A stretch of DNA of 64,000 bases from NCBI RefSeq assembly GCF_002109325.1, contig NZ_CP015348.1, forward strand, positions 27,501 to 91,500, in the 5' to 3' direction. The position numbers and the translations under genes are program-made. The notes below the pieces were generated by a model. That model made no database searches and was not told where the DNA came from. It was given only the letters and a program-made list of their open reading frames with translations. This stretch comes from Sporosarcina ureae. GTDB lineage: Bacteria; Bacillota; Bacilli; Bacillales_A; Planococcaceae. Of the stretch, positions 10,055 through 38,380 are shown one piece after another (the first letter of the stretch is position 1; every line of letters begins with the position of its first letter).

Positions 10055-10222
10055 CGAATGATTGTATGGGGAGAGCGCGCATTAGGCGCCGCCGAAGGAG
10101 CAAGTAACAAACGTTATGAATCTCTCAGGTAACAAAACGCATACATGACGCATCTCTGGAGAGTGCTGAGTAATCAGCGGCCGAAGAAAGTATGGAAACT
10201 GTAAAGCTTTCAGGCAAAAGGA
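10055..10222 (+). promoter_or_regulatory. Tandem glycine riboswitch (gcvT leader)
   Basis: Two aptamers in series. The first has GGGGAGAGCGCG, GCGCCGCCGAAGGAGCAAG and ATCTCTCAGGTAACAAAA. The second has CTCTGGAGAGTGC, CAGCGGCCGAAGAAAG and CTTTCAGGCAAAAGGACAG. These are the conserved glycine-aptamer cores joined by a short linker. The intrinsic terminator immediately downstream overlaps the 3' end of aptamer 2, so glycine binding should favour read-through into the glycine cleavage genes (an on-switch, as in B. subtilis). Confidence 0.95.
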
Positions 10223-34355: not shown

Positions 34356-35153
34356 ATGGTTACGATGTCGAAACAAGGCGAACCATCTTTGAACAAACAA
34401 CAACTGAATGAGGACATTGCAAATTTCCCTCAAGTGCACCCGATTACAGATGATATGAAGTTGACTCACAGTGGGGTATCACGTCTGGTGATGATCGATC
34501 GATATTCATTTAAGGATATGGAAAAGAAGACATTGAAAGAAGGCGATTTCGTCGTTCTGACAGTGAGAGAAGATCCGAAGTTTCCGGCACGAGGGTTAGG
34601 CTATATTACGAAGCTCGACCTAGAGAACAACAAAGCGGATATTTGGATTGAGGAAGAGTATCGTTCATCCATCGAAGATATGGACGCTCAATCTAAAGGA
34701 ATTATTACGCGTCCACTCGATGTGCTTGAAAAACCTCTTGAAGTGTTTTATGAGCAGATCGCGAAACGTAATGCGACAGGTCTTGCTTCTGTTGAGAAAA
34801 CGGAAGATCGACGCACAGAGTCGTATAACATGTTTTATGATCAGTTGAGCGCAATGAACTTCATTCCGGCGGGTCGTGTGCTGTATGGTGCAGGGTCAGA
34901 TACGGATGTTACGTTCTTCAACTGTTACGTTATGCCGTTTGTTCCCGATTCACGCGAAGGAATTTCCGATCACCGCAAGCAAGTGATGGAGATCATGAGT
35001 CGTGGTGGCGGTGTAGGAACGAATGGTTCGACATTGCGTCCACGCAACACATTGGCGCGCGGTGTCAACGGTAAATCATCCGGTTCGGTTTCATGGCTTG
35101 ATGATATTGCGAAGCTGACTCATTTGGTTGAGCAGGGCGGATCAAGACGTGGT
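34356..35153 (+). CDS. nrdJ: Adenosylcobalamin-dependent ribonucleotide reductase NrdJ, exon 1
   Basis: Class II reductase that makes deoxyribonucleotides, using B12 to form the active-site thiyl radical. This exon gives residues 1-266. It includes FIPAGRVLYGAGSD, TFFNCYVMP (the first Cys of the redox pair, about residue 189) and GGGVGTNGSTLRPRN, and ends in GGSRRG. The ATG at 34356 has AAGGAGG 7 bases ahead. The frame stops soon after 35153, but the protein resumes in frame at 36368, with group I intron hallmarks between. Spliced length is 853 residues, typical for NrdJ. The gene is preceded by NrdR boxes. Confidence 0.93.
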
Positions 35154-36367
35154 AAAGAGAAGTGCCTCGTCTATAAATAAACCTCGTGAATTGCTGGGAT
35201 ATCTTTATTGCTAAACATCCAATAATATTTATAGGGGTGTTACTAGTGAAAATATATGATGCTAAAGTTGAACAGAATTGTCGAATATGTGGACACATAT
35301 TCATGCATAACAAGCAAGGAAGATTCACTTCACACCTTTTATCAAATCATAACCTAAATCTAAATGAATACTTATTAATCCACTTCTATGATGAGAATGA
35401 TTTAAAATGTTCTTATGAGCTTTGCGATAAACTTGTTCAATTACGAAGGGGAACTCCTAAAAGATACTGCAGTAGGTCATGTGGTGGGAAAGGATTACCT
35501 TTAAAATGCTATATATGCTTTAAGAAATTTGAAGCATCAAATAGACAAACAAAAACATGTGGCTCGAAATGTGCAAAAACCTTAAAATCAAACAGTATAA
35601 TTAATTGGCATAAATCTATGACTGCTGAAGAGAAAAGGAAGCATTTCGAAAACATAATATCCAAAACGGCAAAAACTCGTAAAAAAAATGGAACTCCATC
35701 ATGGAATAGTGGAAAGATAGGCATTTATACAGAAGAGACAATTGAAAAAATCAGAGCTAGTACTTTAAAACAGTTAGCAAACCATTCATTTCAAAAAACA
35801 AAAATTGAAAAAGTGATGGAAGCTTTTCTTATATCTCTTGAAGTGAACTATGAGTATTCATTCATTCTAGATAAAAGACAATTTGATTTTTTCTTAAAGG
35901 ATTATAATTTGATTATAGAATGTGATGGGGACTACTGGCATGCAAATCCCAAGTTTTATCCAAAACCGGCAAACTGGCAATTAGAAAGAATTGAAATTGA
36001 TTTGCTGAAAGATGAAATTGTTAAAAGAAACGGATATCAGATAAAACGTTTTTGGGAAGATGACATTCTGAATAATTTTGAAACGGTGAAAGACATCATA
36101 AATGACTTGTTGGCTACAACGTGACTGGAAACGGTGAGCGTGAATGCTTGAAAACAACAAGTGGTTAAAGACAATCAGCAGCCAAGCCTCTAAGACGTTA
36201 GTTATGAGGAAGGTTCAACGACCATCGAAAGCATGCGAACAGCAGAAGCGAGTAGAGTAGGGTTCAAGCGAACTCCAAGTGCGAGGACATCTGTGGAAGG
36301 TGTAAGATATGGTCTGAACTCTATGGTGACATAGAGAGTTGATGTAGCGCATCAACGTAACGAAATG
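35154..36367 (+). other. Group I intron 1 in nrdJ (1,214 bases)
   Basis: Exon 1 ends GACGTGGT. Intron bases 35164-35171 (GCCTCGTC) pair with it as P1, including the conserved U-G at the splice site and one U-U mismatch. The 3' part has the core segments: P7 strands GTTCA/GACC (36213-36223) and GGTC/TGAAC (36311-36319), preceded by AATCAGCAGCCAAGC and AAGATATGGTCTGAAC. The last base is G36367, and exon 2 continues the reductase frame exactly (GGT|GCT). It contains a homing endonuclease gene between P1 and the core. Confidence 0.92.
35246..36124 (+). CDS. Intron-encoded homing endonuclease, Vsr/PD-(D/E)XK-like
   Basis: A 292-residue protein. The N-terminus has Cys/His zinc-ribbon-like pairs (CRICGHIFMH...SHLLSNH; CSYELC...CSRSC; CYICF...CGSKC). 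A NUMOD-type DNA-contact segment GTPSWNSGKIGIYT follows (about residues 169-182). A C-terminal nuclease half has RQFDFFLKDYNLIIECDGDY (about 232-251), with WHANP and IKRFWEDDI after it. This resembles the EDxHD/Vsr-related homing nucleases (I-Bth0305I type) rather than LAGLIDADG or GIY-YIG. GTG 35246 follows AGGGGTG. It should cut intronless nrdJ and drive intron homing. Strongly AT-rich compared with the exons. Confidence 0.82.
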   Translation: MKIYDAKVEQNCRICGHIFMHNKQGRFTSHLLSNHNLNLNEYLLIHFYDENDLKCSYELCDKLVQLRRGTPKRYCSRSCGGKGLPLKCYICFKKFEASNRQTKTCGSKCAKTLKSNSIINWHKSMTAEEKRKHFENIISKTAKTRKKNGTPSWNSGKIGIYTEETIEKIRASTLKQLANHSFQKTKIEKVMEAFLISLEVNYEYSFILDKRQFDFFLKDYNLIIECDGDYWHANPKFYPKPANWQLERIEIDLLKDEIVKRNGYQIKRFWEDDILNNFETVKDIINDLLATT

Positions 36368-37012
36368 GCTCAAATGATAATGTTATCCAACTGGCACCCG
36401 GACATTTATGAATTCATCATTTCCAAGATGCAAAATCCGCGAATTTTGCGTTATTTGATCGAAAACACAGAAGATGAAATGATTAAGAAGCTGGCACATG
36501 AAAAATTGAATTTCAAACCATTGACAGCACAAGAAGAAGCGATGTATCAAGGTGTTGCAAATTATAAAGAAATCCCCGGTCAAGGTGGATTTAACGCGGC
36601 GATCATTCGTGACGCGGAGTTGAAACTCCAAGATGGCGGAACGTATACTGTTCATAATCCAGAATTCCTGACAGGCGCGAACATTTCCGTCACATTAACG
36701 GATGATTTCATGAAAGCGGTGGAGGAGAACGCGGAGTATGATTTGCGCTTCCCAGCAGTCGAAAATTATTCACCTGAACAAATGAAACATTATAACGAAC
36801 AATGGCATGAAGTCGGCGATGTTCGTGAATGGGAACGTCAAGGACATGAAGTGCGTGTCTATCGTACGATCAAAGCCCGTGCATTATGGGATTTAATTAA
36901 TATCTGTGCTACGTATTCGGCAGAACCTGGCATTTTCTTTATTGATAATGCTAATAATGAAACGAATGCGAAAGCTTACGGACAGCAAGTTGTAGCAACG
37001 AATCCGTGTGGT
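36368..37012 (+). CDS. nrdJ: NrdJ, exon 2
   Basis: Residues 267-481 of the spliced reductase, from AQMIMLSNWHPDI to ATNPCG. It carries DAELKLQDGGTYTVHNPEF, the substrate-domain segments FFIDNANNETN and the Cys of NPCG, which becomes the thiyl radical. The exon ends in the middle of the conserved NPCGE motif at GGT (37012); exon 3 begins GAA and completes it. Codon use matches exons 1 and 3. Confidence 0.93.
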
Positions 37013-37261
37013 GGACTTCGCCTCACGTTAAAAATTGCGGGATGAAGCGGGAAAGCTGAGATGCCAATCCGAACCGAAGGCTGGAAGTAAAATTCTAGTC
37101 AGGGGCAACGCATACCTGGTGATCCTGATTGATAATAATCAGACTATAATCCAGGCACGAGACCGCAACACTGTATGAAAGAAACAGTGAAAATGTATGC
37201 TGAACTTACAGGAAGACAACTGTAAGAACTAGAGGATAAAAAGCCTTTAGGATAACAACTG
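37013..37261 (+). other. Group I intron 2 in nrdJ (249 bases, no ORF)
   Basis: Exon 2 ends CGTGTGGT. Intron bases 37020-37027 (GCCTCACG) pair with it to form P1, with a U-G at the splice site and one U-U mismatch in the same position as in intron 1. Core pairing TAGTC (37096-37100) with GACTA (37142-37146) fits P7. The intron ends at G37261, after which the reductase frame resumes exactly (GGT|GAA, NPCG|E). It contains no reading frame, so it is a minimal group I intron. Confidence 0.85.
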
Positions 37262-38380
37262 GAACAACCACTTGCACCATATTCCGTCTGTAACTTAGCT
37301 GCTGTGAACCTAGCTGAAATGACAGACAAAGAAACTAAAACAGTGAACTTTACGAAATTGATTGAAACAGTTAAAACAGGTGTACGTATGCAGGATAACG
37401 TCATCGACGCGACACCGTATTTCCTTGAAGACAATAAAGTACAAGCCCTTGGTGAACGCCGTGTGGGACTTGGGGTTATGGGACTTGCCGATCTTCACAT
37501 CTATTGTGAGAAAACATACGGCTCCGCTGAAGGAAATCAATTAGTGGAAGAAGTATTTGAAACTATTGCAACCACTGCTTATCGTGAATCCATCGAATTA
37601 GCGAAAGAAAAGGGAAGTTTCCCATTCTTGATCGGTAAAACAGATGAAGAAACGAAAGCATTGCGTCACGCGTTTATCAATTCGGGCTTCATGAAACGCA
37701 TGCCTGAAGATATCCGTGAAGCGATTCTTGAACATGGTATTAGAAATTCCCATTTACTTACAGTTGCACCTACGGGATCTACTGGAACAATGGTAGGAGT
37801 TTCGACAGGATTAGAACCATATTTTTCATTCACATACTACCGCAGTGGCCGTCTAGGGAAGTTCATCGAAGTAAAAGCAGAAATCGTGGAAGAGTATTTG
37901 CAAGCTAATCCAGATGCAGATCCGAATAACTTACCTGATTGGTTTATTTCTTCAATGGAACTAGCACCAGAAGCGCATGCGGATGTACAATGTATCATTC
38001 AACGCTGGATTGACAGCTCTATCTCTAAAACTGTTAACGCGCCGCGCGGTTACACAGTGAAGCAGGTTGAGAGTGTCTATGAGAGATTATATAAAGGCGG
38101 AGCGAAAGGCGGTACAGTATACGTCGACGGTAGCCGTGATTCACAAGTACTCACTCTAAAAGCGGAAGATAATATCCCCGACACAGGAGAAGAAGTCGAA
38201 GTGGCGGAACAGCCAAAAGTTGTGCTCGTCAATACGATTCAGGCACTGCGTTCTACAAATGTTACGATCGGTTCAGAAGTGGGCGACACATGCCCAGTTT
38301 GCCGACAAGGCACAGTAGAAGAAATTGGTGGATGTAACACATGTACGAATTGCCAAGCGCAATTAAAGTGTGGATTATAA
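37262..38380 (+). CDS. nrdJ: NrdJ, exon 3
   Basis: Residues 482-853. It starts EQPLAPYSVCNLAAVNL, with the second redox Cys (SVCNL) and the loop after NPCG. Then come GLGVMGLADL, VAPTGSTGTMVGVSTGLEP (the phosphate-binding loop) and a C-terminal Cys-rich tail (DTCPVCRQG...GGCNTCTNCQAQLKCGL). The tail has a zinc-ribbon-like CxxC pair plus the terminal Cys that passes electrons from thioredoxin. A GC-rich terminator follows. Confidence 0.94.
   Translation, partial: EQPLAPYSVCNLAAVNLAEMTDKETKTVNFTKLIETVKTGVRMQDNVIDATPYFLEDNKVQALGERRVGLGVMGLADLHIYCEKTYGSAEGNQLVEEVFETIATTAYRESIELAKEKGSFPFLIGKTDEETKALRHAFINSGFMKRMPEDIREAILEHGIRNSHLLTVAPTGSTGTMVGVSTGLEPYFSFTYYRSGRLGKFIEVKAEIVEEYLQANPDADPNNLPDWFISSMELAPEAHADVQCIIQRWIDSSISKTVNAPRGYTVKQVESVYERLYKGGAKGGTVYVDGSRDSQVLTLKAEDNIPDTGEEVEVAEQPKVVLVNTIQALRSTNVTIGSEVGDTCPVCRQGTVEEIGGCNTCTNCQAQLKCGL

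Follow-up and report, generated by a model that had tools for sequence, protein, structure and literature searches.

The window analysed here, a stretch of 64,000 nucleotides (nt) of Sporosarcina ureae (contig NZ_CP015348.1, positions 27,501 to 91,500), holds on its forward strand an nrdJ gene interrupted by two inserts, and we hold with high confidence that these are self-splicing group I introns of different families, the first mobile and the second phage-type, in a gene that is a hotspot for such insertions. The three exons lie at 34356-35153 (798 nt), 36368-37012 (645 nt) and 37262-38380 (1119 nt including the stop codon), separated by intron 1 at 35154-36367 (1214 nt) and by intron 2 at 37013-37261 (249 nt, without an open reading frame, ORF). 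The initial annotation, made from the letters alone, had proposed that removal of both inserts leaves an 853-residue protein, with the junctions falling between GGSRRG and AQ and between NPCG and EQ; the joined segments do form a single frame of 853 residues plus stop, the junctions stand where they were placed on the spliced frame, and the observation was right to the base. Left unspliced, the frame of exon 1 ends after KEKCLVYK and that of exon 2 after GLRLTLKIAG, and both inserts end in G. Their identification as group I introns at these coordinates is supported by the comparisons below, in which intron sites are numbered along the coding sequence of the window, making intron 1 site 798 and intron 2 site 1443.

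The predicted spliced product is a class II (B12-dependent) ribonucleotide reductase over its full length, scoring 1631 bits against NCBIfam NF005991 (vitamin B12-dependent ribonucleotide reductase; residues 5-853, cut-off 854) and 580.6 bits against TIGR02504 (cut-off 399.95). Its NPCGE motif aligns to NPCGE in the solved B12-dependent reductase 1xje; we take the cysteine of this motif to be the carrier of the thiyl radical and the glutamate to be a participant in catalysis.

Intron 1 has the P1 helix with its U.G, the terminal G and the P3/P7 core with P4, P6, P8 and P9 that characterize a group I intron. As had been claimed, the exon strand GACGUGGU (35146-35153, GACGTGGT) pairs with the internal guide GCCUCGUC (35164-35171, GCCTCGTC) through seven standard pairs, a U.G at the splice site and one U.U mismatch. 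The 5′ strand of P3 at 36138-36142 pairs with 36232-36236, and that of P7 at 36220-36225 with 36309-36314 (GACCAU/AUGGUC). The structure, drawn by hand as the hairpins P1, P2.1, P3, P4, P6a, P7, P8 and P9, was compared across eight sequences, namely the core of the window intron and seven introns at site 798 without an ORF. Of its cells, 99.5% are paired over 53 pairs, falling to 32.1-42.2% when the structure is slid along the alignment, and two-sided changes occur at 11 pairs against 5.9 in shuffles, none of the 500 shuffles reaching as high; P4 and five of the six P7 pairs are invariant in this set. Outside the genus, the P1 of site 798 introns tracks the host codon, with exon AGAGGT facing guide GCCTCT or GCTTCT and exon CGTGGT facing GCCACG, and because of this the U.U mismatch of intron 1 can be read as a guide suited to AGA confronting a CGT codon. 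A blastn search with the core of intron 1 matched 641 phage records, but no single place in any of them reached 80% coverage of the query.

Intron 2 likewise has a P1 with U.G, a terminal G and a pseudoknotted P3/P7 core with P4, P6, P8 and P9. Here the exon strand CGUGUGGU (37005-37012, CGTGTGGT) faces the guide GCCUCACG (37020-37027, GCCTCACG), again with seven standard pairs, the splice-site U.G and a single U.U mismatch, and this P1 is identical in all 22 members at site 1443. P3 joins 37035-37040 to 37163-37168, and P7 joins 37110-37115 to 37195-37200 (GCAUAC/GUAUGC), so the visible P7 pairings reported for both introns are borne out. Between P7 and P3 stand the extra hairpins P7.1 and P7.2 (37116-37154), which we take to be a mark of subgroup IA. 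In the eleven ORF-less introns at site 1443, that of the window included, 98.9% of cells are paired over 66 pairs, against 29.6-44.1% for slid structures, and two-sided changes are found at 11 pairs, in P6a, P7.1, P7.2, P8 and P9.1, compared with 4.9 in shuffles (0 of 500 as high).

The relatives of intron 2 extend well outside the genus. Blastn recovered 76 phage records, and the strands of P3 change together among them: UUGCGG/CCGCAA in the window, UUGAGG/CCUCAA in Bacillus phage BpSp, UCCCUG/CAGGGA in Listeria phage LIS04 and, read by eye, CGGCGG/CCGCCG in Exiguobacterium phage EauM-23. P4 is likewise altered on both strands in the phage relatives, while P7 is GCAUA/UAUGC, or GACUA/UAGUC in EauM-23. 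A model (R1) built from the eleven ORF-less introns, with the P7 pairs left out, recognized five of the six phage loci tested and matched 28 of 398 genomes of the class, in 17 of 145 genera with Sporosarcina counted. Half of these genomes (14 of 28) have the match inside nrdJ directly after NPCG, six of them in the genus and the others being G253, G280, G137, G196, G249, G319, G421 and G447, and the reductases concerned include some of only 40-45% identity. The remaining 14 genomes, like a second locus of G137, showed no NrdJ frame close to the match, and several flanking frames resemble, by eye, genes for tape measure protein, terminase, DNA polymerase or helicase. Intron 2 belongs to a phage-type family common to Bacillota chromosomes and phages, and the two introns of the window are of different group I families. 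In G257 a weak R1 match (22 bits) adjoins a frame resembling a thiamine-dependent decarboxylase, which is not a phage gene, and in the terminase region of Listeria phage LIS04 (387-2510) the intron lies beside pieces annotated as intein/Hint, so that two kinds of splicing element are apparently held together there. A 60-residue piece in the intron of G421 gave a match to GIY-YIG endonucleases below the cut-off (E 0.046), by which such an enzyme is only suggested.

The distribution of the inserts was read in the genus, to which the window genome belongs. The search for NrdJ covered 121 genomes, 68 of them Sporosarcina with the window genome counted, and the interrupted genes read were that of the window, 34 others from Sporosarcina and, from another genus, that of G106; the partial or frameshifted genes of G015, G047 and G023 were used where letters exist. 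Fifty of the 68 Sporosarcina genomes have nrdJ, the other 18 giving weak hits only. Fifteen of the 50 genes are uninterrupted, 34 contain group I introns and one, that of G045, contains two group II introns. The 34 genes hold 58 group I introns at five exact sites: 792 (8 genes), 798 (9 genes, or 10 with G047, in which the contig starts partway through an intron; window included), 822 (11 genes), 1443 (22 genes, window included) and 1959 (7 genes). Since insertions at exactly the codons of the window recur in 10 and 22 of the 50 genes and 15 of the 50 are empty, the inserts are not a product of chance. Single introns are found in 17 genes, two in 11, three in five (G009, G013, G024, G032 and G062) and four in one (G005); the initial annotation had thought two introns in one chromosomal class II reductase gene unusual, which does not hold within this genus, where 17 of the 50 nrdJ genes have two to four. 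A 30-nt exon separates the 792 and 822 introns in six genes, and in G005 two of the four introns in the single gene are separated by such an exon. Introns at 792 and 798 (8 and 9 carriers) were not found together in any gene, a mutual exclusion that is not significant over 50 genes (P 0.18), and no interruption was seen in the nrdJ genes examined from Ureibacillus and, five in number, from Tetragenococcus.

Most of intron 1 is occupied by an endonuclease ORF at 35246-36124 of the forward strand, with a GTG start and 292 residues, on which the initial annotation is silent. It scores 26.5 bits against Pfam DUF559 (cut-off 20.6) and matches phrog_559 (E 1.1e-13), while a sequence search of the PDB returned three hits only, none convincing (E 0.39-0.68), and its designation as Vsr/DUF559-like is tentative as regards Vsr. 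Among the 398 genomes of the class, 20 have a relative at E<=0.001 and seven at E<1e-100 (the window genome, G019, G104, G253, G196, G247 and G280); all seven strong matches sit in nrdJ right after GGSRRG, and a 27-residue remnant stands at the same place in G120. The identities of enzyme and host gene run out of step. The endonucleases of G104, G196 and G247 are 55% identical to that of the window and the corresponding NrdJ exon 1 is 41% identical, while in G253 the same 55% accompanies an NrdJ exon of 81% identity; the histories of the two disagree, in keeping with transfer between hosts. Between the window genome (G000) and G019, nrdJ has a synonymous divergence (dS) of 0.76 and a ratio of nonsynonymous to synonymous divergence (dN/dS) of 0.04, and the endonuclease has 0.45 and 0.16, respectively. 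The endonuclease ORF is intact and under purifying selection, as expected of a mobile intron. Phage relatives of the enzyme are distant, all 77 records lying below 60% identity, and in viral contigs the best-scoring relative among the 80 loci kept is 41% identical over 106 residues.

A sister genome, G043, has an nrdJ coding sequence 97.1% identical to that of the window. Its site 798 is empty, and its intron 2 equals that of the window over 249 of 249 nt once a 533-nt HNH cassette in loop L5 is set aside, so that between these two genes one intron differs by its presence and the other by its endonuclease alone. The empty sister allele, the fidelity to one site and the out-of-step identities bear only indirectly on the predicted homing of intron 1. 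All five sites of the genus have both ORF-bearing and ORF-less introns, divided at an intron length of 700 nt, and the endonucleases, classed from one representative per blastp cluster and site, are Vsr/DUF559-like at 798, LAGLIDADG with a helix-turn-helix at 792, and HNH at both 822 and 1959. Site 1443 is the most varied: three genomes have HNH in loop L5 (G018, G043 and G056), seven have in loop L8 an enzyme that is PD-(D/E)xK-like by eye with no Pfam match above cut-off, one (G033) has a LAGLIDADG enzyme near P9, and eleven introns have no endonuclease. Four of the ORF-less introns at this site (L038, L041, L061 and L065) have a lengthened P5 hairpin. Its arms look similar to the termini of the HNH cassettes of G018, G043 and G056, and these hairpins are possibly scars of endonuclease loss.

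The exon bases next to the junctions also differ between genes with and without introns. For these counts G045 was excluded and G047 was treated as a non-carrier at 798 in spite of its truncated intron. The nine nt upstream of the junction are AGACGTGGT in 9 of 9 carriers and 2 of 40 non-carriers at 798, CCGTGTGGT in 22 of 22 and 6 of 27 at 1443, and CCAACGGGT in 7 of 7 and 0 of 42 at 1959. Over the 24 nt around the junction, third-position diversity is 0.26 in carriers and 0.53 in non-carriers at 798, and 0.16 and 0.53 at 1443, where the footprint is gone by 30 nt. In a sliding control along the gene, none of 784 windows was as extreme for 792, 798, 1443 or 1959, and 25 of 784 were as extreme for 822, where the footprint is weaker. 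Carriers therefore show a short synonymous-codon footprint at four of the five sites, both sites of the window included. The footprint could stem from flanking exon imported along with the intron, from selection for pairing in P1 and P10, or from a target preference of the endonucleases.

Several observations weigh against the account given so far. The Rfam group I model RF00028, which the initial annotation had proposed as one of its checks on both introns, recognizes intron 1 (50.1 bits at 36060-36336) with a margin of only 0.1 bit over its cut-off of 50 and is silent on intron 2 even at E<=1. In the 13 loci scanned it recognized introns at 792, 798, 822 and 1959, some below cut-off, and none of the seven others at 1443, and for the five phage relatives recognized by R1 it gave no match at their places at E<=0.001. 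Because these phage introns also escape it, the miss is a property of the Rfam model with respect to the intron 2 family, and absence of a match is not a decisive test. P1, P3 and P4 of intron 2 are invariant in the genus and so give no support from covariation there, P7 varies by one unpaired cell, and the helices of the phage relatives were assigned by hand, with a script checking their complementarity alone. For the endonuclease, the Pfam Vsr score (20.4 bits) is below the cut-off of 27, and a structure predicted from two sequences had a mean predicted local distance difference test (pLDDT) score of 35.9, too low to use. Comparison with G043 reveals no long co-conversion tract around site 798 (identity in windows 0.97-0.99), and the footprint at 798 is confined to the upstream side, diversity in carriers and non-carriers being 0.14 and 0.64 upstream and 0.38 and 0.42 downstream. 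Because of these last two observations, gain of intron 1 in G000 and its precise loss in G043 are equally possible.

The alternative with the best standing concerns the footprint only. Here the fixed junction codons would hold no trace of homing and would instead reflect selection for pairing in P1 (and P10), splicing having been lost wherever an allele drifted, and we give this a chance only a little short of even. The width of the footprint is about that of P1 plus P10, its restriction at 798 is to the side on which P1 lies, and at 792, 798 and 1443 the exon bases that are fixed are paired to the guide. A serine at 1959 tells the other way: it is AGT in 7 of 7 carriers, whereas the 42 other genes have TCN (38) or AGC (3), with one row an artefact of a truncated contig, and since AGT and TCN are two steps apart by way of another amino acid, the switch points to import with the intron. 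The footprint is, moreover, two-sided at 792, 1443 and 1959, and a script looking for P1 saw no clear long helix at 1959, where it gave four pairs in 3 of 8 introns and nothing clear in 5 of 8, or in 4 of the 12 introns at 822. The same script misplaced one of nine P1 helices at 798 (G051), in which the guide is present by eye. The serine switch speaks for import, the one-sided footprint at 798 for pairing.

A second alternative is that the inserts are dead and that nrdJ is a decaying pseudogene, tolerated thanks to a class I reductase. Every one of the 42 Sporosarcina genomes tested, like that of the window, does have the class I small subunit (PF00268), and because of this nrdJ is probably not the sole reductase of the cell, a circumstance that may explain why its load of introns is tolerated. 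The 18 of 68 genomes whose weak NrdJ hits are to class I enzymes, some of them incomplete assemblies, would also suit such a decay, as would a frameshift in exon 2 of G023 (assembly 83% complete, 9% contaminated). Against it, purifying selection on the exons downstream of the introns is strong, with dN/dS of about 0.03 relative to G019 (0.027 for exon 2 and 0.033 for exon 3), exon 2 has no amino-acid change relative to G043, the endonuclease is under purifying selection as well, and the bases adjoining the junctions are fixed in carriers and variable in non-carriers; decay of the gene is very improbable.

That the inserts are inteins has a negligible probability: reductase genes are known intein hosts (PMC3653736), and some relatives have long frames at the insertion (1253 residues in G001), yet in the window in-frame stops follow both 5′ junctions, the codon after the insert is alanine or glutamate and not cysteine, serine or threonine, both introns show RNA covariation, and the long frames of the relatives are endonuclease ORFs within the introns. 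Inteins suspected at site 1443 from such frames were likewise rejected on reading the insertions. A group II intron or another splicing element has next to no chance of being the answer, the group II introns of G045 notwithstanding, as no group II family reached its cut-off within the window, the only sizeable ORF of intron 1 encodes a nuclease and intron 2 has a length of 249 nt. The two elements of G045 (2714 and 2616 nt, with reverse transcriptases) lie close to the NPCGEQ codons, one being inserted 6 nt past site 1443, and the nrdJ frame is intact once both are removed.

Returning to the reading of the inserts as two group I introns, splicing would proceed by attack of a guanosine bound at P7 on the 5′ splice site, presented by P1 with its U.G, after which the released exon would attack past the terminal G of the intron to give an mRNA for an intact class II reductase. 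Intron 1 would be the mobile unit, its endonuclease cutting intron-free nrdJ between GGSRRG and AQ and repair copying the intron in; splicing, cleavage and the direction of transfer are here deduced from sequence. Intron 2, without an endonuclease in the window, would be the counterpart of relatives in which the same ribozyme carries one of several unrelated endonucleases in different loops. What would make the gene a hotspot is the conservation of its active-site codons as targets, and the exon codons adjoining the junctions would be fixed by homing or by selection for splicing.

We place little credence in the further idea that the introns persist as a gate on nrdJ. As splicing requires guanosine and a folded ribozyme, the need to remove one to four introns would, on this idea, tie output of the class II reductase to the guanine-nucleotide pool, temperature or magnesium, with class I covering normal growth; homing would both bring in new introns and rewrite active-site codons, and the host would have exploited the switch. 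The genus can be regarded as a natural experiment in the turnover of introns and endonucleases within one chromosomal gene, with filled and empty alleles at five sites and, at 1443, one ribozyme that is found alone or with HNH, PD-(D/E)xK-like or LAGLIDADG enzymes in different loops. It should permit tests of how endonucleases invade ribozymes, of whether exon codons are rewritten by homing and of why introns are attracted to conserved active-site codons. Because the standard Rfam model overlooks the intron 2 family, genes interrupted by such introns are likely to be annotated as broken.

Other RNA elements were observed in the same genome. Outside the window, at C1:2777814-2781138, one group I intron (85.1 bits) splits a flagellin gene and another (82.2 bits) lies after the gene; a C-terminal tail ending in QGVLQLLR and a stop is present twice, before and after the second intron, a duplication that might allow alternative ends. 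Within the window a glycine riboswitch lies at 10058-10150 (61.9 bits).

Group I introns are known from bacterial recA, nrdE and flagellin genes (PMC3984707), over 100 are curated in RNRdb (PMC2795772), nrdJ is split in two phages (PMC3653736), and both inteins and group I introns tend to occupy conserved sites (PMC2814812). The mobile group I intron of a reductase gene is a known kind, and some of those in Sporosarcina nrdJ may already be catalogued in RNRdb; in the literature searched, mostly without subscription journals, no description of the Sporosarcina nrdJ introns, or of a dense polymorphic hotspot in this gene, was found.

Among the known systems, the nrdE gene of phage Twort reportedly contains two group I introns and so resembles the window in having two in one gene for a reductase large subunit, that of Twort being a phage class I gene. 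One reductase gene is said to be stacked with inteins and group II introns, not group I. The reductase of Nostoc punctiforme, which is presumably B12-dependent, offers a chromosomal parallel. Its gene (RIR) was reported to hold a group I intron that bears an insertion element (Meng et al. 2007, through PMC12702839); unlike Sporosarcina, it has this one intron and element, and the excerpt of the description mentions no endonuclease hotspot. The introns of Bacillus nrdE and recA and of SPbeta nrdE and nrdF are similar in lying in bacterial or prophage genes, reductase genes among them, in being phage-like and in having endonucleases in some cases (PMC3984707, PMC3653736), whereas in Sporosarcina the host is a class II nrdJ with five insertion sites and as many as four introns in a gene. 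The endonuclease of intron 1 has a parallel in the P559 VSR-type endonucleases of Bastillevirinae phage introns: phrog_559, the family matched here, is listed as having a VSR endonuclease domain, and most of the phage introns are described as IA-like (PMC11878797); those introns interrupt phage terminase genes, unlike the chromosomal nrdJ of Sporosarcina.

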